Below are positions 1,025 to 24,458 of a DNA stretch of 24,520 nucleotides, in pieces. Origin of the DNA: a virus; IMG/VR virus record IMGVR_UViG_3300047550_000413, positions 1 to 24,520 of that record; one strand, given 5' to 3'. Within the stretch, counting starts at the first letter, position 1. The number at the start of each line of letters is the position of its first letter. Both the position numbers and the translations under genes were made by a program. The notes beneath the pieces are model-generated. The model was not told the origin of the DNA, searched no databases, and was given only the letters and a program-made list of their open reading frames with translations.

Positions 1025-1269
1025 AAACTTATCAACTGATGGGAATTGATACGGCGATGCACTTGCTGCGTCCCGGTGCAAAGTGGGAGATCAGCAACCG
1101 CGAGATCACCCGCTGGGAAGACCCGCGACCGAAACCGTCGTGGGACGAGATCATGTTCACGATTGAGAAGATCAAGGAACTTGAGGACGCGGTGCCGACG
1201 ATCCTGTTGCCCGAGCAGGCAAAGGCGTTTGAGGAATACGTCAGCCAGATTGAAAAGGCGGTCGCGTGA
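1021..1269 (+). CDS. Small XkdW-like tail-associated protein
   Basis: An 82-residue protein with an N-terminal segment containing L-R-P-G-A-K-W and a W-x-D-P-x-P-x-P-S-W-D-E-I segment, followed by a helical C-terminal half. This arrangement resembles small XkdW-type proteins often encoded directly after phage tail fibre genes; some are thought to be fibre assembly helpers. No catalytic motif is visible. Its ATG overlaps the adhesin stop (ATGA) and its stop overlaps the next GTG start, so it is probably translationally coupled to both. A role in adhesin folding or assembly is inferred from position only. Confidence 0.6.
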   Translation: MKTYQLMGIDTAMHLLRPGAKWEISNREITRWEDPRPKPSWDEIMFTIEKIKELEDAVPTILLPEQAKAFEEYVSQIEKAVA

Positions 1270-1865
1270 ATCTGTATTCCATATTCCCGACAGCGGTTGC
1301 CAAGTTTGAACTCGGTCGTGAGTACACCGCCGAGGAAAGCGCCTTTGTGGACTCGCAAGAGACGCACAAGAACCAAGGCAACACAACAAGCAATGACCGC
1401 TATGTGCTGCGCCATGACACGATGGCAAACCTCAAGGCGTTCGTAGAGGCGAGCGTGGGCGAGTACCTGCGCTCCATCTACGCGCCGAAGAACGAGGTGG
1501 GCCTACGCATCACGCAGTCGTGGCTGAATTACTGCAAGCCCGGCGAGTGGCACCACAAGCACGCGCACCCGAACTCGTTTATCTCGGGCGTCCTTTACAT
1601 GAAGGCCGCACGCGAGCGCGACAAGATTTACTTCTACCGCGACGGCTACAAGCAGATCAGCCTGCCAACGAACAACTGGAACCTGCACAACTCAGAGTCG
1701 TGGTGGTTTGAGGTCGGTGCGGGCGACCTGATGATTTTCCCCTCGCACCTGACGCACATGGTGGAATCCGTGCAGCAGGAGCGGGTTTCGCTGTCGTTTA
1801 ACACTTTCCCGGTCGGATACGTTGGTGAGGAAGAAAGTCTCACCGCTTTGCATTTGGAGAATTGA
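1266..1865 (+). CDS. 2OG-Fe(II) oxygenase family protein
   Basis: A 199-residue protein matching the small phage 2-oxoglutarate/Fe(II) oxygenase type (2OG-FeII_Oxy_5-like). The first metal-binding region is around H97-x-H99-x-H101 followed by P-N-S-F-I-S-G-V-L-Y-M. The second is I-F-P-S-H-L-T-H (H161/H164), followed by E-R-V-S-L-S-F-N, in which R173 would bind the 2-oxoglutarate carboxylate. Family members hydroxylate protein or other substrates using O2 and 2-oxoglutarate; the phage substrate is not known. The start is GTG at 1266, overlapping the previous stop (GTGA). Its place after the glycine-rich adhesin suggests modification of a fibre or of host material, which is inference. Such genes are common in aquatic phages. 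Confidence 0.85.
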   Translation: MNLYSIFPTAVAKFELGREYTAEESAFVDSQETHKNQGNTTSNDRYVLRHDTMANLKAFVEASVGEYLRSIYAPKNEVGLRITQSWLNYCKPGEWHHKHAHPNSFISGVLYMKAARERDKIYFYRDGYKQISLPTNNWNLHNSESWWFEVGAGDLMIFPSHLTHMVESVQQERVSLSFNTFPVGYVGEEESLTALHLEN

Positions 1866-14222: not shown

Positions 14223-16304
14223 ATGGCAAAGCTTGAGTTCTACAGACAGCAGGTCATTCCGCGCATCGCTACTCCAAGCAGTCGCGGGATTGCGGCTGCC
14301 GGCGCTCAAGCAACACAAACTGCTGAAGCACTTATCCAAGCCGTTTCAACCGTTGGAGAAGTGGCAAAAAGACGAAGCCTTGAAATTGAAAAAGCTAAAG
14401 AAGACGAGGCCGCTATTGATGCAGCATCTCGCGCAATAAACATTAAGGCAAAGTGGGCTGAAACATCTGCTGCACTTGAAAAAGAAGCGATAGATAAAGA
14501 CCAGTTAGATGGTTTTACAAGTAGAGCAAGAAAAGCCTACGATGACATTGTTTCCCAAGAAGTTTCTGGAGCCAAGACAAATAGATCTCGCGCTTGGCTT
14601 AACCAAAGAGCATCTGAATACGGAATAAACGTATTTGAAAGCTCTTTGCGCTGGGAGGCTAATTCCAAAATAAATCGCGACATCACCAAAGCAGAGCAGT
14701 CATTTGAGTCTGGACGCCTTATTGTTTCTGCAAAACCGCAAGATTATGAAGCGGTCAGGAATGATGTTGGACTCCAGTTTGCAATTCTGCCGGCAGACAA
14801 ACGAGAAAGGGCATGGGCGAAAGCACGAAGCAATCTGGCTCTCGACGCTGCACTTTCATCGATGCGGGCAAATCCAACTGCGATTCAGAAAGAACTGAAA
14901 TCCGACCCCGGCAAGTCGAAATTTGCTTTCATTAATGATCTTGATCAAGACGATCGCAATCGACTGAGCACGCAGACCGAAGCAGAGATTGAGCAGATCA
15001 AGCGAGAGCAAGAGCGTCGCAGGGCAGAGTTGCGAGACGTTTTGCGGGACGACGTTGCAAACCAGACCGCGCTGATGAGTGTTGGCGTTGTTCCGCAAAA
15101 CCCGATTCCGCGGTCAAGGTTTGTCGCTGCCGGCATGGGCGACGATTACGATAGTTATTCGGAAACATTCAAGTTAGCTCCAATGATGAACTCGCTTGCC
15201 AACGTGAACCGGCAAAGCGCGATAGCCAAGATTGAGAGTTTGAAGCCGACGACAGAGAAAGGCGCTGCCGATGCGGTCAAGCGATACGATTTTGCGTTAA
15301 GAAACTACACAAACATTGTCAAACAGCAAGAGGACGATCCCGGCGCATTCCTAATCCAGAACTCACCGTCTCTGCGCTCTGCATACGAAGCAATCAGTTC
15401 TGCTCAGACGCCAGAAGCCGCCATGTCTGCCGCGCAGAATTACGGCAGGCTGGCTGTAACTGAGGCCAGAAATATCGGCATTCAAAATCCTGCGATTCTG
15501 CCGAAGAATGTTGCCGACGACATCGTCGCCAGAGTCTATGGCCGGTCGCAGGATGATAAGTCTTTAGTCGGTTCTGCGGTCATCCTTGCCGAGCGACAAA
15601 AGTGGGGCAAGTATTGGCCGAACGTGTTTGCTCAAGTTGCTAAAGAACTACCGGGATCTGCCGCGGTGATTGGCGCTGGAATGCGCCAGAAGCCCGCGGA
15701 TCGGTTGATTGAACTGTCTGCGCTTTCCGAAAAAGATCTCAATGCTTTATTGCCTTCAGGCAAAGCGCCAAAAGATGTTAGAGACAGAGTCAATGACGTT
15801 ATGACCGACGTATTCGCCTCGTTCCAAGGGCAGAGCGGCGATGGATCTATGATCGCGATGCTTGAAGATGCGGCATATCGACTTGCGGTCGATTACGTCA
15901 GGGCTGGGAAAAGCGTCAACGATGCAGCCGATCTTGCGTATTCCGAGGTTGTTGGTGAGCGGTACGTTTTTGCGGAAATTGAGGACAGCATGATTCGCGT
16001 CCCAAAGCAGAGCGCGATGTCTAACAGCGTCCTACGGACAGGGCTGACAACTGCAAAGAATGCAGCCGTGAAAGAATTAGGATTTAGCCGGCTTCGAGAT
16101 GCTTATTGGCAGACATTGCCAAGCGATGATCGCGTCGCCTTGATGTACGACAACGAGCCCGTGCTTGACAATAGCGGCCGCCGCGGCAGACCCGGCAAGC
16201 CAGTTATTTATACATGGGAAGAATTAAGAAATATCGATGAAACTCTTAAAGAGCGAGAAAGGCGTGGCGAGTTTCTCACCCCTGTTGCTAGGGGAATTAA
16301 ATGA
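14223..16304 (+). CDS. Internal virion protein (T7 gp15-like)
   Basis: 693 residues, compared with 747 for T7 gp15, and predicted almost entirely helical. The N terminus reads A-K-L-E-F-Y-R-Q-Q-V-I-P-R-I-A-T-P-S, followed by coiled-coil-like segments (~25-130). No enzymatic motif, signal peptide or membrane segment is visible. In T7, gp15 and gp16 form the tube crossing the periplasm and inner membrane through which DNA is pulled in; the same role is inferred from size, helix content and its place between gp14- and gp16-like genes. AGGTG at 14214-14218 precedes the ATG at 14223. The first ~650 bases are AT-rich (one 60-base block, 14461-14520, is 35% GC against 60% in 12121-12180). The stop overlaps the next start (ATGA). 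Confidence 0.82.
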   Translation: MAKLEFYRQQVIPRIATPSSRGIAAAGAQATQTAEALIQAVSTVGEVAKRRSLEIEKAKEDEAAIDAASRAINIKAKWAETSAALEKEAIDKDQLDGFTSRARKAYDDIVSQEVSGAKTNRSRAWLNQRASEYGINVFESSLRWEANSKINRDITKAEQSFESGRLIVSAKPQDYEAVRNDVGLQFAILPADKRERAWAKARSNLALDAALSSMRANPTAIQKELKSDPGKSKFAFINDLDQDDRNRLSTQTEAEIEQIKREQERRRAELRDVLRDDVANQTALMSVGVVPQNPIPRSRFVAAGMGDDYDSYSETFKLAPMMNSLANVNRQSAIAKIESLKPTTEKGAADAVKRYDFALRNYTNIVKQQEDDPGAFLIQNSPSLRSAYEAISSAQTPEAAMSAAQNYGRLAVTEARNIGIQNPAILPKNVADDIVARVYGRSQDDKSLVGSAVILAERQKWGKYWPNVFAQVAKELPGSAAVIGAGMRQKPADRLIELSALSEKDLNALLPSGKAPKDVRDRVNDVMTDVFASFQGQSGDGSMIAMLEDAAYRLAVDYVRAGKSVNDAADLAYSEVVGERYVFAEIEDSMIRVPKQSAMSNSVLRTGLTTAKNAAVKELGFSRLRDAYWQTLPSDDRVALMYDNEPVLDNSGRRGRPGKPVIYTWEELRNIDETLKERERRGEFLTPVARGIK

Positions 16305-19300
16305 GCTTTGAAGGGCTTTTATCAATTCGCCGCCCGTATGAGAGGCAAGTTGAAGTACGCGAACCAACCCTTGGTGAGGAGCTAATTGAGGTTGGCCGCG
16401 AGACGCTGGAATTTAGCCCAACGCAATCCATTGTCAGGGGACTTGAGCTTTCAGAGGCGCGCAGAACCGGAAACATCCTGTCAGCAGAAAGCGCAAGAGC
16501 GCAGCTCGGATCGGCAGGACTCCGCGAACAACTGACTGTTCCTGATCAGGGCATTACCCAAGAGGCTCTCGATATACTCATTCGCCGCAAGCGGATTGAG
16601 AACAGGCGCGCCGAACTGTATTCCAGAAGCCCCGGCGGGTTTGGCCGCGGAACTGCAAAAGTGGCCGCCAGTCTCGGGTATTCGCTTTTCGATCCAATCA
16701 ATATTGCAACGGCGTTTGTGCCGGTAATTAGCCAAGCGAAGTATGCAGCCATGCTCCGAGCGCAGGCTGGACTGTTAGGCCGCACCGGAGTTCGAGCTGG
16801 CGTTGGCTTTGTCGAAGGCGCTGCTGGCGCTGCGTTGGTTGAGCCGCTGATCCTAAGCACGGCCCAAGCCGAGCAGGCCGAATACGATGGCGTCGACTCC
16901 CTGCTTAATATCGCATTTGGAGGCGTTTTGGGCGGCGGTCTCCATGCCGTGGGAGGGGCAGGGTATGAAGCTGTCCGTCGCCTCAGAGGGCTTGAGGCGC
17001 TGCCTCCGCGCAATGATGTCGATGCTGCCGTCCAGCAGGCCATTATTGAGTCACGGGAAACGCTGCCGGCGGCCCCCGATGTGCCGCCTCCGGTTCGCGT
17101 CGAGACTGCCAAGCGATTTGAACCGACGAACGTCCAGCCTGTGGACGCTTACACCGAGTCGGCCCAAAAGATCCTGAAAGAACTAAACAGCATTTACGAC
17201 CTTGATCCGAATAACTCTAAGCAGGTATCCGTTGCGACCGGCGAAAAAGCGGTATCGATTACCGAGTTTATTCGCCGAACCGGAGGCATCATCGATCAGG
17301 GTGGTGAACTGGCTGCGCGTGACGTCAACAACAAGACCGCGCCGGGGCTTGTCCGCAAGGATACGCCAGAAAACAGACAGACCTCTGGCATGGACTCGGT
17401 TCGCGAGCGACTGTTTGAGGCCGGCTATTTCCCTGACAAGGCCGATTACAACAACATCACCGATTCCGAGATTTTTGATGCGTTGATGGAGGACATTGGC
17501 GGCAACAAGATCTGGCAAGGATCGGTACGCAACAAGCTCTCCAGTTTCATTTATGGCCGCGATTACATCTCCCGCATGGAAGCTGAGGGTTTCAGCCGGG
17601 ATATGTCCGTGGCGCAGATCGCCGATCGCCTGCGATCTATGGATGACGAGGCGCGTGCCGAATTTGATGTTGCTCGCGAGATTGATCCAGAGACCCTGCG
17701 CGAGTATGAGGCGTTTGCGGAACGACTCAATGCTGAGAACGCGGCTGCCAATGTCGCCGAATCGCTTAACCCTGCAACTCGCCGTGCCGCACTCGAGACT
17801 GGCGTCGCGCAGGCTATGGACGCTCGGAATATCAACGTCGACCCAATCGTCGAGCTTGATCCGTCGCTTGCCCGTGGTGGCCCAGACTTCCCAATCCAGT
17901 CTGCCCGTAATGCCGCGATCGAAAACTTCCGTCCTGATCAGGCTGCATTGGTGGACTTTGAAGCGGCCGCCGAGACGCCAGATCCGAGTCGCGTCCCGAT
18001 GCTGGATGCCGCCGATGCTGCGCTTGCCGATGCTCGAGCGGCTGCTGACGAGGCCGTCAATACGGTAAACGCTGAGGGCGAGTTCCGTCGCAGCCTTATG
18101 GTGCAAGAAGAGCCACAGCAGTACGGCGACGTCCCGGTTACTGTGGACAATGTCGCCAACGTCGAGGCGGCCTTTGAGCTTGCTCGCAGCAAAGAGTTCC
18201 CAAACAACCGCTCCTTCAAGAAAGAAATCCAAGACGCGGTTAATGCCGCCGCGGGCGATGCCGGTGTTGACCTTGCGGAAATGACTCCAGAGGTTGAGCG
18301 GTATTTGATTCGCATGGCCGTGCGCGAGGCGCGTGTTGCCTTACGCGACAACGCGAACGCCGTCGGCTGGTACAACGAAAAGGTTACCAAGGCGCTTCGC
18401 ATCATCTCGCTGATTCATCCTGAAATCCTCAAGAGCCGTGAGGATAGGTTCGCGTTTACTTGGGCGCTGGCCGTTACGTCAAACGGGTTGAAGGTTGATA
18501 AGAATTTCGAGCTTGCAATGCGAGCGTATGAGAGCTGGAAAAAGACCGGCCGCATGCCGACAGATATAGGCATTGGCACGGCCTCTGGCGCTATCAACGA
18601 CTCTCTCGAGCTTTACAACGTGATGCTCAAGCAGCACGGATTCGATGCGCTTGAGAACTTCATGCGGTCGAAAGACACGGTTAAGAACATCAACGCATTC
18701 TCTGGGCTTGAAGTCGGCGGTGAAAACCTCTCGACCCAAGTCTACGGCTCGGCCATTCTTGGCCCGAAGATCGGCAACGGATTTTTCTCAAACCTGTACG
18801 GCAACTTTGAGCAGCTTACGATTGACCGTTGGCTCATGCGTACATGGGGCCGGTGGACTGGAACGCTCATCGAGGAAAACCCGACGCAGGTTGCCGCCAA
18901 GAAAAAGTCCCTTGTTTCACTTGTCAAACTGTTAGACAAGGATCAGCGCAAGGCGCTTGAAGGCATACTCGGCAAGAAGATTGCTCTGGGCCGGCCAGAT
19001 GAAATTGCTTTTGCGATTGCCAAGGCCAGCACCAAAAAGCCAAACAGGGCGGCTATTAACAAGATCGGCGCTGGATTTTCGGAAGAAACATTACGTTCTA
19101 TCGTCGGCCCCTTGAAGAAAGGAAAGGTTAGAGTCGGTCTAGGCGATGAAATACGGAAAACCGGAAACGCGCTTTCCAAATATATCGACGGCCAGAAGGA
19201 AGCCCCTTCCGGGCCGCCAGAGCGCGCCCGTCTCCGTAAGGTCTTTGGCGTAGCCCTAGAACAGTTACAGAAAGACAATCCAGAGTTAACAATGGCTGAC

Positions 19301-22300
19301 ATGCAAGCTTTGCTCTGGTATCCTGAGAAGAGGTTATATGATGCAGCGGGTGCAGCAGATGAAGCAGTCGAAGCCGGGTATGCAGACGATGCAGCCCCAG
19401 ACTACGCCAATGCAGCAGCCAAACTCGCCGAAGGACGAGGAATCTCCAGAGATCGAATCGACGGAGCCACTCGAGCAGTTGATAAAGAGTTACAGGCCGA
19501 GCAACGCACAAGACGAACAGGACGAGCTGGTAAGCGAATTTCTAAATCAGAAGCGTTCACAGTAAATGAGCAGCTCCAACTGTATCTCGATCTCGGGCCA
19601 GTTCCGACTCAAAGCGGCCCGCGAGCTGTCGCAGCCCAGCGCGCCGCAGTCAAAGCGGTGGATGATCTACGATCCTCCTCCGACCTACTTGCACTCTCCT
19701 TGTCGCGTGATTTCGCTGAAAGACAGAGAGCCTCCCTTGTCGGGCAAAAAGTAGCCTCGACCGAGGACTTTGCCACACTTGCTCAGGTCTACCGTGATCC
19801 GCGGTTTGAGACATTGCGCTATGTCTTTACTGACGAAAACGGAAACATTGTCGGGCAGATAGGAGCAACATCTCGTCTGCCGGCTGCCGCCGCTGGATGG
19901 ATAGGGCCAGAGGCCACCGACTTCTTAAACGAGCTTATCGACCGTGCATACGGAATCGGCGCGCGCGGTGTTTATCTTTTGCATAATCATCCAAGCGAGA
20001 TCGCCAGACCAAGTTCTGCTGACATCGAGTTCACTACAGACGTCGCCAAGTTCTTCAAGAGACGCGGGATGGAATTCCGCGATCATGTGATTATCGATAC
20101 CAATGAGTATTCCGTAATCAAGGCAGACGGAGCGTCCGAGACAATCAAGAAAGATTTTGGTCAGCCGAGCCTTTTGCGCCTCAAGAAAATGGCAAGCACA
20201 CCAATCAAAAACGGTGAAACACTTGCCGCTCTTGCCCGCGAACTGAAATTTGATAACAAGTCGACGGTACTGATTGCGACGAATAATAGATACATTGTCC
20301 AAAACATCGTTGAAGTACCGCAAGAAAAGATCATGTCTTACGGCAGCACGCCGCAAGGCAAAGCTAGTGCAATGTTTGCCTTGCGTAAGTTCGCGCTGAC
20401 AAGTGATTCATCGTTTATTTTCGCGGTGACCAAAGACCATGCGTCGGCTCAGGCGATGCGTAACGTGGCGCTTGACACAATTTTCATCGACGAGAGCGGT
20501 CGCGCAGTTTCTGTTGGTGCGAAACAAGATCGTGGTGGACGGATCATTCCGCGAGACCGACGAGCTAGAATTTCGCCGGAAACCAGCGAAGCGTTTTTGC
20601 CATTACGCGATCTTGATGCCGCCGAGGCCATGCGACAGAAAGGCGTGTTTGAGGAAGGTGCTGCCTACAATGCTGGCGATGCCAAGGATCAGATGCGCCC
20701 GTTCGATGACGCGATCGCCCGCGCAGACATTTACGCTCAAGCGGTACGCGCTGCCGCAGACCGTGTTGGCAATGACGCCGCCGCGCGGAGCGCAATGCAA
20801 GCGGCATCTAAAGGCCAGCTCACGGCGATGGAGATCGACACGCTTCTGGCTCGGCTGAAGGAAGAAAATACGCGCGTTCGCTCTACACTCAAGAAAGCGC
20901 AAGAGCAGTTCACGGCTGCCGACAAGATCGACTCGCTTGAGGGCGATGCGACCCGCGCAGCCAATTCGCTCGCCAACAACATTAAACTCGACGCAACAAT
21001 CGCCGCCCGCAATGCCGCGCTCAGTCTCGCAGCGCGCACCAAAGCGGTCGGCCGCATCCTGACTCAGTTTGCAGACAATCCGTCTGAAGGTCTGCTCTCT
21101 CTGCTTGGCGGTTCATCGTTCGCCCGGTTTGGCTCCAAGGATTCAGCATTCCATTGGCAGCGCACTTACTTCACTCGCTGGACTAAGGGCATGCTTGCGG
21201 AGATGGAGAAGGATGGGCTTGTCGAGGGGTTTGCCAGCGACGCCTACTCTCGCGATGTTGCCCGCGCTCTGTACCAGATGGGCCGCGATGCGCCTCGCCT
21301 TGAGGGGCTCGACCCAACCGCGGTCAAGATCGCCAAGATTGTTTACAAGTACCGCGAAGATTCCCGCAATACCCGCAACCGATTCGGCGCGTGGATTCGT
21401 GACCTGACCGGATACATCACCCGCCAACAGCACGACTTTATGAAGATCCGTGCGGCAGGCGATAAAGAATGGAAAGACTTTGTGCGTCAGCGCATTGACG
21501 TTGAGCGCACCCTGAAGCCGGGGCAGAACCTTGAGGAGTTCCTCGATGTAGTCTATGCCGATCTTTCTGCTGGCCGCCATTTGTCGGCGATTGATGACGA
21601 GGCCGCCGCCTACACGGCACCGGGCTCGCTTGCGCGCCGCGCCTCGCAGTCGCGTGTTATCTACTTCAGGGATGCGGATGCTGAGTTTGATTATCTGACC
21701 GAGTTTGGCGTCGGCAAACTGAACGAGGCAATCCTTGGCGATCTTGGCCGTGCAGCGCAGCAGGCTGGCCTCATGCGAGTCCTTGGCCCGAACCCCGGTT
21801 ACACGCTCAAGGCGGTCATGGCCGAGGTTGAGGCCGCGATCGTTCGCACTCCAGAGCTGCGCGAAAAGTTTGCCGGAACGCGAGATACCGCAGAGGCGCT
21901 GCTCTCGATGCTCGACGGTCGAGCCAACGTCCCCGGCGGGGCGATGGCCGCTCGCGTCGGATCGAACGTGCGCGTGGTTCAGTCAATGGCAAAACTCGGT
22001 GGCGCAGTTATCTCGGCGGTTACCGACCTTCCCGTATACGCCAGCCAGATTAAGTATCAGGGCCGCGGCGGCCTGTTCTCTGGTATTGCCGAGGGAATTA
22101 GCGGCCTGCTTCAAGGGCGCGCCAAAGGCGAACGCAAGCGCATTCTCGGAATGATTGACACGGTGGCTGATAACCTTGTCGGAAGCGTCGCTACTCGATT
22201 CGATTCAGATGATCTGATGTCTGCCGGGTCTGCCGATCTGATGCGAGTTTTCTTCCGGTTGAATGGATTGCAATGGTGGACAGATACCCTGCGAGAGAGC

Positions 22301-23299
22301 ATGGAGCTTGGCACGGCTAACTGGCTGGGTTCGCTTCGCAATACATCGTTTGACGGGCTCGACTCTAACGCCAAGCGGCTGTTCGATCAGTACGGGATTA
22401 CCGCTCCAGAATGGGATGTTATCCGGCAGGGATTCATCGAGGCCGCCGATAAACGCACTTATGTTGTGCCAGAACGAATCAATCAACTCGACATTGAAGC
22501 ATTCCGCGAATACCTGACCAAGATCGGCCGTGAACCTACGGACGCTGCGGCGGCCAATGCGCGCCGAGACCTTGCCGATCGGCTGCGTAACTTCATCATC
22601 GATCAGGCCATGACCGCGGTAATCGAGCCCGATATTCGGTCGCGTTATTTCTGGGTTCGAGGTCAGCGGCCCGGTACGTTTTGGGGCGAGATCGCTCGTT
22701 ACGTTGCACAGTTTAAGGGGTTCCCGACCGCGCTTACTCGGCAGGTATTTGGTCGCGAGGTCTATGGTCGTGGCTATGGTTCGCTGCCTGAATACCTCAA
22801 GTATGGCAAGGGCGACATGCTCGGCCTCGCGCAGATGATCCTAATGATGACGGCGTTCGGTTATATCGCGATGTCGGCCAAGGATCTGCTCAAAGGCAAG
22901 ACACCTCGAGATCCAGAGAATGTTCAGACATGGCTGGCCGCCATGCTGCAAGGCGGCGCGCTCGGCATCTATGGTGACTTCCTGTTGGGGCAATCCAACA
23001 GGTACGGACGAAACATTGTTGACACGCTGGCTGGCCCGACGTTCGGAGTAATTGGCGACCTCGATGAACTGCGCCAACGGGCGATGCGTGGGGATGATGT
23101 GGCCGCTTCAGCGTTCCGCATACTGATCGCCAATACCCCATTTATGAATCTGTTTTATAGCCGTATAGTTCTCGACTACCTTGTGCTTTACCAGATTCAA
23201 GAGGCGTTGAACCCCGGTTACCTGCGACGCATGGAGCGTCAAATAGAGCGAGAGCAAGGGCAGGAGTTCCTGCTCGCGCCTTCAGAAGCTGCGCAATGA
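16301..23299 (+). CDS. Giant internal virion/ejection protein (gp16-like) with RadC-like JAB domain
   Basis: 2332 residues, far above T7 gp16 (1318). In order: a helical N terminus with two Gly/Ala-rich hydrophobic stretches (~125-215, including F-D-P-I-N-I-A-T-A-F-V-P-V-I); a module with E-F-I-R-R-T-G-G-I-I-D (~310-375) known to me from large phage and conjugative 'polyvalent' proteins; Ala-rich helices (~430-620); a module with G-P-K-I-G-N-G-F-F and T-I-D-R-W-L-M-R-T-W (~690-1030); a RadC-like JAB/MPN domain (~1150-1290) with H1228-N-H1230-x7-S1238-x2-D1241; a possible second JAB-like half (~1300-1405) lacking the HxH; coiled coil (~1430-1560); and a helical C-terminal part with a membrane segment at ~2173-2195. 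I see no SLT transglycosylase motif. AGGGG at 16290-16294 precedes the ATG. The ejection role is inferred from gene order and C-terminal type. Confidence 0.83.
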   Translation: MSFEGLLSIRRPYERQVEVREPTLGEELIEVGRETLEFSPTQSIVRGLELSEARRTGNILSAESARAQLGSAGLREQLTVPDQGITQEALDILIRRKRIENRRAELYSRSPGGFGRGTAKVAASLGYSLFDPINIATAFVPVISQAKYAAMLRAQAGLLGRTGVRAGVGFVEGAAGAALVEPLILSTAQAEQAEYDGVDSLLNIAFGGVLGGGLHAVGGAGYEAVRRLRGLEALPPRNDVDAAVQQAIIESRETLPAAPDVPPPVRVETAKRFEPTNVQPVDAYTESAQKILKELNSIYDLDPNNSKQVSVATGEKAVSITEFIRRTGGIIDQGGELAARDVNNKTAPGLVRKDTPENRQTSGMDSVRERLFEAGYFPDKADYNNITDSEIFDALMEDIGGNKIWQGSVRNKLSSFIYGRDYISRMEAEGFSRDMSVAQIADRLRSMDDEARAEFDVAREIDPETLREYEAFAERLNAENAAANVAESLNPATRRAALETGVAQAMDARNINVDPIVELDPSLARGGPDFPIQSARNAAIENFRPDQAALVDFEAAAETPDPSRVPMLDAADAALADARAAADEAVNTVNAEGEFRRSLMVQEEPQQYGDVPVTVDNVANVEAAFELARSKEFPNNRSFKKEIQDAVNAAAGDAGVDLAEMTPEVERYLIRMAVREARVALRDNANAVGWYNEKVTKALRIISLIHPEILKSREDRFAFTWALAVTSNGLKVDKNFELAMRAYESWKKTGRMPTDIGIGTASGAINDSLELYNVMLKQHGFDALENFMRSKDTVKNINAFSGLEVGGENLSTQVYGSAILGPKIGNGFFSNLYGNFEQLTIDRWLMRTWGRWTGTLIEENPTQVAAKKKSLVSLVKLLDKDQRKALEGILGKKIALGRPDEIAFAIAKASTKKPNRAAINKIGAGFSEETLRSIVGPLKKGKVRVGLGDEIRKTGNALSKYIDGQKEAPSGPPERARLRKVFGVALEQLQKDNPELTMADMQALLWYPEKRLYDAAGAADEAVEAGYADDAAPDYANAAAKLAEGRGISRDRIDGATRAVDKELQAEQRTRRTGRAGKRISKSEAFTVNEQLQLYLDLGPVPTQSGPRAVAAQRAAVKAVDDLRSSSDLLALSLSRDFAERQRASLVGQKVASTEDFATLAQVYRDPRFETLRYVFTDENGNIVGQIGATSRLPAAAAGWIGPEATDFLNELIDRAYGIGARGVYLLHNHPSEIARPSSADIEFTTDVAKFFKRRGMEFRDHVIIDTNEYSVIKADGASETIKKDFGQPSLLRLKKMASTPIKNGETLAALARELKFDNKSTVLIATNNRYIVQNIVEVPQEKIMSYGSTPQGKASAMFALRKFALTSDSSFIFAVTKDHASAQAMRNVALDTIFIDESGRAVSVGAKQDRGGRIIPRDRRARISPETSEAFLPLRDLDAAEAMRQKGVFEEGAAYNAGDAKDQMRPFDDAIARADIYAQAVRAAADRVGNDAAARSAMQAASKGQLTAMEIDTLLARLKEENTRVRSTLKKAQEQFTAADKIDSLEGDATRAANSLANNIKLDATIAARNAALSLAARTKAVGRILTQFADNPSEGLLSLLGGSSFARFGSKDSAFHWQRTYFTRWTKGMLAEMEKDGLVEGFASDAYSRDVARALYQMGRDAPRLEGLDPTAVKIAKIVYKYREDSRNTRNRFGAWIRDLTGYITRQQHDFMKIRAAGDKEWKDFVRQRIDVERTLKPGQNLEEFLDVVYADLSAGRHLSAIDDEAAAYTAPGSLARRASQSRVIYFRDADAEFDYLTEFGVGKLNEAILGDLGRAAQQAGLMRVLGPNPGYTLKAVMAEVEAAIVRTPELREKFAGTRDTAEALLSMLDGRANVPGGAMAARVGSNVRVVQSMAKLGGAVISAVTDLPVYASQIKYQGRGGLFSGIAEGISGLLQGRAKGERKRILGMIDTVADNLVGSVATRFDSDDLMSAGSADLMRVFFRLNGLQWWTDTLRESMELGTANWLGSLRNTSFDGLDSNAKRLFDQYGITAPEWDVIRQGFIEAADKRTYVVPERINQLDIEAFREYLTKIGREPTDAAAANARRDLADRLRNFIIDQAMTAVIEPDIRSRYFWVRGQRPGTFWGEIARYVAQFKGFPTALTRQVFGREVYGRGYGSLPEYLKYGKGDMLGLAQMILMMTAFGYIAMSAKDLLKGKTPRDPENVQTWLAAMLQGGALGIYGDFLLGQSNRYGRNIVDTLAGPTFGVIGDLDELRQRAMRGDDVAASAFRILIANTPFMNLFYSRIVLDYLVLYQIQEALNPGYLRRMERQIEREQGQEFLLAPSEAAQ
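19338..19565 (+). CDS. Candidate nested gene inside the giant ejection protein gene
   Basis: A 75-codon open frame in a different frame from the host gene, starting at ATG-ATG (19338/19341), with AAGAGG at 19328-19333, 4 or 7 bases upstream. The product is hydrophilic: a Met/Gln/Pro-rich first half (M-K-Q-S-K-P-G-M-Q-T-M-Q-P-Q) and an acidic second half (E-S-P-E-I-E-S-T-E-P-L-E-Q-L-I). After its TAA another ATG follows at once (19566), opening a further 61-residue frame. The host frame here is itself low in complexity (Ala/Asp-rich linker) but continues into recognisable domains on both sides, so the host frame is certainly coding. This nested gene is possible, not shown. Confidence 0.25.
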   Translation: MMQRVQQMKQSKPGMQTMQPQTTPMQQPNSPKDEESPEIESTEPLEQLIKSYRPSNAQDEQDELVSEFLNQKRSQ

Positions 23300-23309
23300 G
23301 GAATAGAAC

Positions 23310-24458
23310 ATGACCGTCTCATCCTTGGTATACAAAATCAGTTACGCCGGCAACGGAACCAGTACCGCATTTGCGGTGCCTTTCTACTTCCTTGCCAATA
23401 GCCAACTGCTAGTCACGCTGCGCTCTGCTGCCGGGGTTGAGACGATCCAGCTCCTTGATGTGAATTACACGGTGACCGGAGCCGGGGTACTGACCGGCGG
23501 CACGGTGACGATGACTGTCGCGCCTGCGACTGGCGCAACGGTTACGATCTCGCGCAACGTCCCGATTACACAGACGACAGACTTCCAGCCGAACGATCGG
23601 TTGCCTGCTGAGACGCTGGAGCAGACGGTCGACAAACTGACCATGATCTGCCAGCAGCTCGCAGATTCGTCAGACCGCGCGCTTAGATTCCCGATCTCGG
23701 ACACCTCGACGGATACCGAACTTCCGACCTCGACGGCGCGTGCAAACAGATACCTGCGCTTTAACAGCAGCGGCAATCCGATCGCCGCATCGATTATTGC
23801 CGACATTACCGCATCGGCGTCTGACCTTGCTAACGCAGCCAGCACGATCAACACGACCGAAAAAGTCACCGGGCGTCTGGTGTGGGATACCACTAACCAG
23901 CAACTCGTTCGCGCTGCTGGGCCTGCTGCGGGTGACGGGTGGGATGTTGTGGCCTCGGGTGGCGGCACGGTAATCACGTTGCCGATCACCTCGATCACCG
24001 GCATGGGGACTGGCGTTCAGACGTTCCTGATTACGCCGACCTCTGCAAACCTGCGCTCGGCTGTTACGGATGAAACTGGCACGGGTTCCCTTGTCTTTAA
24101 CACTAACCCGACGATCGACGGCGCGACCTTCACGGGCAACGCGCAAACGACGTCGGTGGCTGCGGCAAGTTCAGCCGGCACGCTCTCGATTAACTGTAAT
24201 GACAGCAACGTCTTTACGGTATCGATGACTGAGAACGTCTCGACGTTGACTCTATCGAACGCATCGGACGGCCAGACAATCAATGTCAGGTTCACGCAGG
24301 ATGCGACGGGCGGCCGCACAATAACGTGGCCGGCATCCTTCAAGTGGGCAGGTGGGTCTGCCGGATCGCTGTCGTCTGGCGCGAATGAGGTCGACTTCTT
24401 GGTTGCGACATACATCGGCTCAAGCTGGTATGCGTCGCTCTTGAAGGCGTTTGCCTAA
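23310..24458 (+). CDS. Tail fibre protein with T7 gp17-like N-terminal domain
   Basis: 382 residues. Residues ~1-140 (Y-A-G-N-G-T-S-T-A-F-A-V-P-F-Y-F, then D-V-N-Y-T-V-T-G, T-I-S-R-N-V-P-I-T-Q-T-T-D-F, F-P-I-S-D) match the virion-binding N-terminal domain of T7 tail fibres. The middle is a helical and repeat-type stem. The end (D-E-T-G-T-G-S-L-V-F-N-T-N-P-T, then I-T-W-P-A-S-F-K-W-A-G-G and S-S-W-Y-A-S-L-L-K-A-F) is a common fibre C-terminal module. It probably attaches to the tail and bears or adapts other fibres, since it is shorter than T7 gp17 (553). GAGGAA at 23298-23303 lies 6 bases before the ATG. Its stop overlaps a further start (TAATG). Confidence 0.9.
   Translation: MTVSSLVYKISYAGNGTSTAFAVPFYFLANSQLLVTLRSAAGVETIQLLDVNYTVTGAGVLTGGTVTMTVAPATGATVTISRNVPITQTTDFQPNDRLPAETLEQTVDKLTMICQQLADSSDRALRFPISDTSTDTELPTSTARANRYLRFNSSGNPIAASIIADITASASDLANAASTINTTEKVTGRLVWDTTNQQLVRAAGPAAGDGWDVVASGGGTVITLPITSITGMGTGVQTFLITPTSANLRSAVTDETGTGSLVFNTNPTIDGATFTGNAQTTSVAAASSAGTLSINCNDSNVFTVSMTENVSTLTLSNASDGQTINVRFTQDATGGRTITWPASFKWAGGSAGSLSSGANEVDFLVATYIGSSWYASLLKAFA

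Follow-up and report, generated by a model that had tools for sequence, protein, structure and literature searches.

A 2OG-Fe(II) oxygenase-fold protein encoded with a glycine-rich phage fibre: a candidate fibre-modifying enzyme

Why should a phage encode a 2OG-Fe(II) oxygenase-fold protein in the same run of overlapping genes as a Gly-rich fibre, and could the one act on the other? The locus that raises this question lies in the IMG/VR virus record IMGVR_UViG_3300047550_000413, which spans 24,520 bases and is classed as lacking end repeats; the window is this whole stretch of DNA. Profile matches identified head-tail connector, capsid, tail and lysis genes, and the virus, judged from these genes, looks podovirus-like. 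The contig starts inside the Gly-rich fibre/adhesin gene, of which only the 3′ part is present (2–1024, + strand; PF21722 1.3e-33, 117.4 bits with a cut-off of 24.3; phrog_2295 7.6e-60). It is followed on the same strand by a gene for an 82-aa accessory protein (1021–1269; phrog_21526), the oxygenase gene (1266–1865; 199 aa, GTG start), and a gene for a 127-aa accessory protein (1867–2250; phrog_7759); the connector gene (PF12236) comes next. The junctions between the Gly-rich and 82-aa genes and between the 82-aa and oxygenase genes are four-base overlaps, ATGA and GTGA, and four-base stop/start overlaps are the usual sign of coupled translation. A promoter/terminator scan gave three terminator-like matches and no promoter-like one, below the numbers obtained from shuffled sequence.

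That the ORF at 1266–1865 encodes a 2OG-Fe(II) oxygenase had been proposed in an original prediction made from the DNA letters, and this was borne out by profile matches to PF13759 (4.7e-18; 65.9 bits, cut-off 27), phrog_81 (1.8e-40) and TIGR02466 (67 bits, cut-off 62.5); Cupin_2 was also matched, weakly and below its cut-off. The structure model (pLDDT 88.6) exhibits the double-stranded beta-helix fold, with Z values of 14–20 to 2OG oxygenases. Its top PDB neighbours in a fold search were 2rg4 (Z 19.6) and 3bvc (Z 19.5), solved structures of uncharacterised bacterial proteins from Oceanicola and Roseovarius, which have HxH in common with the window oxygenase at 19–22% identity. The next neighbours were PHD2/EGLN1, OGFOD1 and Pseudomonas PPHD (Z 15.5), AlkB (15.0) and algal P4H (14.6), and the window oxygenase thus shares its fold class with protein hydroxylases at Z 14.6–15.5. 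Rows differing by less than 1 in Z were counted as tied; AlkB and PHD2 are tied, so the fold does not decide between a protein and a nucleic-acid substrate.

The presumed metal-site motif of this protein departs from the usual one. At the HxD/E position of known 2OG oxygenases, the alignment places His99-x-His101 (codons at 1560–1568, + strand), followed by His164 as the presumed distal metal ligand (1755–1757, +) and by Arg173 of an R-x-S motif (1782–1784, +), which we take from the superfamily to be the 2OG carboxylate ligand. His99, His101, His164 and Arg173 are all invariant in 30/30 aligned relatives. In the extended family, His at position 101 was retained in 24 of the 26 readable rows (window included), the exceptions being Asn in L374 and Met in one syn9 row, and most PF13759/TIGR02466/phrog_81 members examined have the same HxH...H...R positions as the window oxygenase. 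Read from sequence, the motif is HxH...H in place of the canonical HxD/E...H facial triad of Fe(II)/2OG oxygenases. PHD2/EGLN1, OGFOD1 and PPHD have HxD...H. This is also the P4H triad (PMC2767507), whereas in the window clade the catalytic Asp of collagen-type prolyl 4-hydroxylase is a His. According to the available text of the same study, an Asp-to-His variant of the human prolyl 4-hydroxylase (D414H, i.e., 3-His) showed no detectable activity (PMC2767507), suggesting that the family either uses a 3-His centre or carries out chemistry different from that of P4H.

The Gly-rich neighbour is probably a polyglycine adhesin, i.e., a host-binding fibre, as its structure model indicates. The model of the Gly-rich domain (239–1021) has pLDDT 85.4 and resembles the Bxb1 tail tip, at Z 16.1 with 185 residues aligned and 31% identity, as well as the Pam3 fibre, at Z 15.4; the Bxb1 and Pam3 rows span Z 14.6–16.1, and the ALK glycine-rich domain follows at Z 6 to 7. 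The two marks of a polyglycine (brush) adhesin, PF21722 and the polyglycine-lattice fold, are therefore both present. A profile search of the domain against PDB sequences returned no match up to E 0.1, whereas the fold search did match. Pam3 gp24 and the Bxb1 tail tip are polyglycine adhesins to which the window domain folds alike, and Salmonella phage S16 gp38 is another adhesin of this kind. Pam3 gp24 was described as a fibre with a dedicated chaperone, and the distal ends of such loops were proposed to be receptor-binding (PMC9608196); the available text of that paper does not contain the term oxygenase.

The association of the two genes was counted in 299 sequences including the window, which hold 180 distinct oxygenase genes and come from three relative scans, one control scan and three phage records. 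Each of the three relative scans kept its best 80 matches, two of them out of 514 relatives each, which makes these a sample and not the whole family; the loci of the third scan share no less than 78% identity with the query and are not independent. A Gly-rich ORF was defined as one of 120 aa or more in which some 100-aa segment reaches 33% Gly, with its end no more than 1.5 kb upstream of the oxygenase, and 35 of the 180 oxygenase genes were dropped for having less than 1.5 kb upstream. The original prediction had named co-occurrence of the oxygenase with such fibres as a check, and the check was passed: a Gly-rich ORF precedes 140 of 145 distinct oxygenases among the matches listed, compared with 3/80 control loci in which one occurred anywhere. 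These controls (mean 12.2 kb) were fetched with the window's other tail gene, which encodes a T7-tail-fibre-N-terminus-type protein (23310–24458, + strand; PF03906 2.5e-4, below cut-off; phrog_1640 5.5e-39), and 0/80 carried the oxygenase. Grouping at 70% identity gave 15 clusters, 13 of them testable and 9 positive among the matches listed; the four negative clusters comprise L263 together with a single relative, two cyanophage S-B64 genes, and L288, in which the Gly-rich ORF (27% Gly) is more distant. Oxygenases of the PF13640 type (P0001) failed as an independent replicate and were kept as a negative control: a Gly-rich ORF, at a looser 30% threshold, lay within 3 kb in 13 of the 64 loci that had 2 kb or more upstream, and at least three of those 13 are contigs already in the sample.

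The association was also followed in the reverse direction. A search with the window's Gly-rich domain brought up 71 loci, 18 of which were too short; the oxygenase was found in 41 of the other 53, counted anywhere in the fetched locus and in L366 by weak matches only, and was absent from 12. When the search was widened to the full records behind these 12 loci and five more, PF13759 exceeded its cut-off in two and PF13640 in one, while 9 of the 12 records, several of them short, contained neither. Among 253 distinct Gly-rich genes, the oxygenase lies within 1.5 kb downstream of 181, elsewhere in the locus for 38 and nowhere in the locus for 34. The accessory genes were used as markers as well: the oxygenase was present for 134 and absent for 20 of the 154 phrog_7759-type genes that have a Gly-rich gene upstream, and when the 82-aa gene served as query, both partners were present in 76/76 loci that extend far enough to either side; the 82-aa genes of these 76 loci are close kin, all at least 89% identical. 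A tblastn search of phage records with the Gly-rich N-terminus of DSL-LC04 returned only its own record, perhaps because low-complexity sequence was masked.

The linked genes behave as a portable unit. In DSL-LC04 and MW202483, both titled complete genome, PF21722 genes adjoin the oxygenase, and the neighbours outside the cassette vary, i.e., the PF12236 connector in the window, a P22-like portal and coat in MW202483, and other modules elsewhere; the genes upstream of the Gly-rich gene also vary between loci. A phrog_7759-type 127-aa gene is found 3′ of the oxygenase in many loci. Two loci (L003 and L036) contain two oxygenases each, every one with its own upstream Gly-rich gene (one in L036 about 1 kb off). 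In addition, the oxygenase cluster co-varies with the type of the Gly-rich C-terminal tail (mutual information 1.96; mean 0.77 and maximum 0.94 in 1000 shuffles), although relatedness alone could give the same co-variation, and a single ancestral cassette may have given rise to every linked case.

Several loci show further features of their own. A 125-aa ORF with no Pfam match (start ...KAQRNDFP.FYAEY) occurs in L011 (8429–8806) and other loci, often directly after the oxygenase. In L288 (1272–4090), a Gly-rich ORF is followed by a gene that appears phrog_7759-like by eye and by three oxygenases, two of them PF13640 and the third PF13759, among which lies a 166-aa gene without a Pfam match. 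In MW202483, the gene annotated as 'baseplate wedge protein gp6' (L163, 8639–9487) is a Gly_rich_2 protein (PF21722 1.1e-22). A 202,665-base large phage record (L367) carries nine Gly-rich genes within 10.6 kb, with no PF13759 or PF13640 matches.

Published work assigns phage 2OG oxygenases to DNA repair, to nitrogen/2OG metabolism or to secondary metabolism (PMC3037559, PMC11288001, PMC9602691, PMC12542629), one 2OG-Fe oxygenase was grouped with DNA replication genes (PMC9004378), and a PF13759 member of large DNA viruses is listed as a hypothetical protein (PMC10598087); the available text of the literature cited here gives no established function for PF13759, TIGR02466 or phrog_81. The window gene could accordingly have an auxiliary part in metabolism or DNA repair, e.g., by altering 2OG/nitrogen metabolism or in the manner of AlkB, and have come to lie in a fibre cassette by chance. 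Such a role would be in line with this literature, with the AlkB match at Z 15.0 and with the replication and metabolic genes that surround distant relatives, but a free rider would have varied neighbours, and here the Gly-rich gene stands directly upstream in nearly all cases counted among the matches listed (140/145), the pair is present twice in two loci, and the two genes can overlap at the Gly-rich stop codon. We consider this explanation unlikely.

Those distant relatives set the limits of the link. No Gly-rich ORF was found, even at 30% Gly, in the regions of the cyanophages S-B64, syn9, S-RIM2, P-SSM2, P-HM1, S-CAM9 and P-RSM6, and in all of these except syn9 and P-RSM6, i.e., five of seven, the oxygenase relative lies among replication or metabolic genes. 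In syn9 (L370) and P-RSM6 (L375), it belongs to a cluster of several 2OG oxygenases with two genes annotated as tryptophan halogenase, one of which, in syn9, matches PF04820 (1.4e-99). A gene annotated 'tail fiber assembly' precedes the syn9 cluster by a few genes; these are possibly another protein-tailoring cluster. The loci from bacterial genomes have a Gly-rich ORF in one case of five (L301, at 22% Gly). An extension of the link to all PF13759 was therefore rejected (cyanophage regions 0/7, bacterial loci 1/5), and, as far as the compared loci indicate, the link is a property of the clade of the window oxygenase, the one clade tied to Gly-rich adhesins among the PF13759 members examined. 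Two observations concern the cyanophage regions themselves: in S-RIM2, a 167-aa 'tail fiber protein' with only 5% Gly is encoded between two oxygenases (L371, 7991–8491), and in S-B64, an open 2OG oxygenase frame without a feature in the record annotation lies downstream of photosystem genes (L164, 9989–10597).

The oxygenase might instead modify another product of the module or a host component, e.g., the 82-aa or 127-aa helper, the fibre stem or a surface receptor, which we regard as decidedly unlikely. Helpers are indeed usual in the cassette, phrog_7759 being common and an 82-aa homologue lying between the Gly-rich gene and the oxygenase in 134/159 pairs, but no 82-aa gene was found between them in the other 25: 17 of the 159 pairs have oxygenase and Gly-rich gene touching or overlapping each other without it, and 8 further pairs gave no 82-aa match. 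These 17 direct contacts make the Gly-rich gene the steadier partner of the oxygenase. Against this explanation, too, the genes upstream of the Gly-rich gene vary by locus. In addition, a 35.7-kb record (L329) has the adhesin together with both helpers, a 79-aa one and a phrog_7759-like one, but neither PF13759 nor PF13640, an apparent natural loss of the oxygenase as read from its genes.

That the protein does not work as a 2OG oxygenase at all, and instead either carries out some other chemistry at a 3-His metal centre or has lost activity and serves as a fibre-folding chaperone, would agree with the HxH...H found in 30/30 relatives and in 2rg4 and 3bvc, with the inactive P4H variant D414H (PMC2767507) and with the sub-threshold Cupin_2 match, but is very unlikely given that the fold is that of 2OG oxygenases and that the metal-site His residues and the R-x-S Arg are invariant, although a scaffold could do without them.

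On balance, we lean towards a fibre-dedicated oxygenase-fold enzyme that acts on the polyglycine adhesin with which it is encoded. The linkage, the folds and the conserved motif positions are computational observations, and the protein hydroxylases PHD2, OGFOD1 and PPHD, found among the nearest characterised folds, favour this reading. The cassette would be a portable fibre unit composed of a polyglycine-lattice adhesin, usually the 82-aa helper, the oxygenase and often the 127-aa helper. From these observations we infer an active, 2OG-using enzyme that would be made late, together with the adhesin, and would oxidise, most likely hydroxylate, at least one side chain in the exposed distal loops of the adhesin before virion assembly; the modified loops would then tune or stabilise the host-binding tip. 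The idea of a phage enzyme that hydroxylates its own fibres, contained in the original prediction, is thus favoured insofar as co-occurrence points to an enzyme serving the Gly-rich fibre, but its specific version, prolyl or lysyl hydroxylation, is not supported, the metal motif being HxH...H.

A candidate for the target, and the first place to look, is the conserved GNTPSTSPSQGNNGG loop (GNTPSTSPSQG[NS]NGG), found in the window as NTPSTSPSQG (623–652, + strand; model residues 129–138). This part of the domain was modelled with low confidence (block means of 56 and 63, and values below 50 at residues 130–132), as would fit an exposed flexible loop. The motif GxGNTPSTSPSQG[NS]NGG is common to linked Gly-rich genes, and a 2OG oxygenase occurs in the locus or record of 169/171 motif-positive compared with 57/82 motif-negative Gly-rich genes (Fisher 7e-12, a value that ignores kinship between genes). 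However, even P.QG is missing from 20/181 oxygenase-linked Gly-rich genes, and since some linked adhesins lack the motif, the loop cannot be the sole substrate; conversely, L329 keeps the loop motif without the oxygenase. The Pro motif was accordingly rejected as defining the substrate, given these 20 genes and an association uncorrected for kinship. Choosing the substrate residue by composition was likewise rejected: between 181 linked and 72 other Gly-rich genes, no residue type was markedly enriched.

A more specific reading, which we put forward tentatively and hold to be possible but doubtful, is that in aquatic phages a 3-His relative of protein hydroxylases, dedicated to tailoring the fibre, oxidises exposed, conserved loops (e.g., GNTPSTSPSQGNNGG) on polyglycine-lattice adhesins, a virus-made post-translational modification of the receptor-binding tip; the same tentative grade covers, jointly with that reading, a metal site that departs from the textbook HxD...H of 2OG hydroxylases. 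No published proposal linking such an oxygenase to fibre hydroxylation was found in the literature searched, which covered few subscription journals. If one clade does modify its co-encoded adhesin, some phage oxygenases would have been misfiled as metabolic helpers, and phage host binding would have a chemical layer that sequence-based host prediction misses; the HxH metal site would then be a question for enzymologists. The claim names a gene pair to express and weigh.

A known parallel is the prolyl and lysyl hydroxylation of collagen, in which, as proposed here, a 2OG enzyme completes a fibre rich in glycine. The differences are that the window clade has another metal motif and that the Gly-rich ORF has no G-X-Y repeat beyond chance: its longest G-X-Y run is 6, while its own shuffles gave a mean of 5.5 and a maximum of 11, so the Gly-X-Y substrate expected near a collagen-type prolyl 4-hydroxylase is not found in this ORF. 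The original prediction had rightly placed the oxygenase two genes after the Gly-rich gene, but the 'last gene', whose start reminded it of collagen-like fibres, is a 21-codon fragment cut by the contig end (24458–24520, + strand, overlapping the previous stop), which reads MTFAARSLLNV, then GPPG, then a P run. Homologues of the preceding gene, in its C-terminal part, are carried by 15 loci, and in 13 of these the next gene has a [MVL]-[ST]-F-[AG]-A-R leader followed by a short stretch that is mostly Gly-, Ser- or Thr-rich; the window P run therefore looks like a linker at that place, and the collagen-like fibre was dropped. An exact-pattern scan for the window's own end leader gave no match. 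We considered, but do not claim, that the first and last ORFs of the window are two ends of one Gly-rich gene; against this, most Gly-rich genes of relatives begin with another leader (MSGIM...).

Elsewhere in the window, the stretch 16301–23299 encodes a 2332-aa protein, presumably an internal virion protein, which contains a RadC-like JAB domain (PF04002, 2e-11) at residues 1211–1274.
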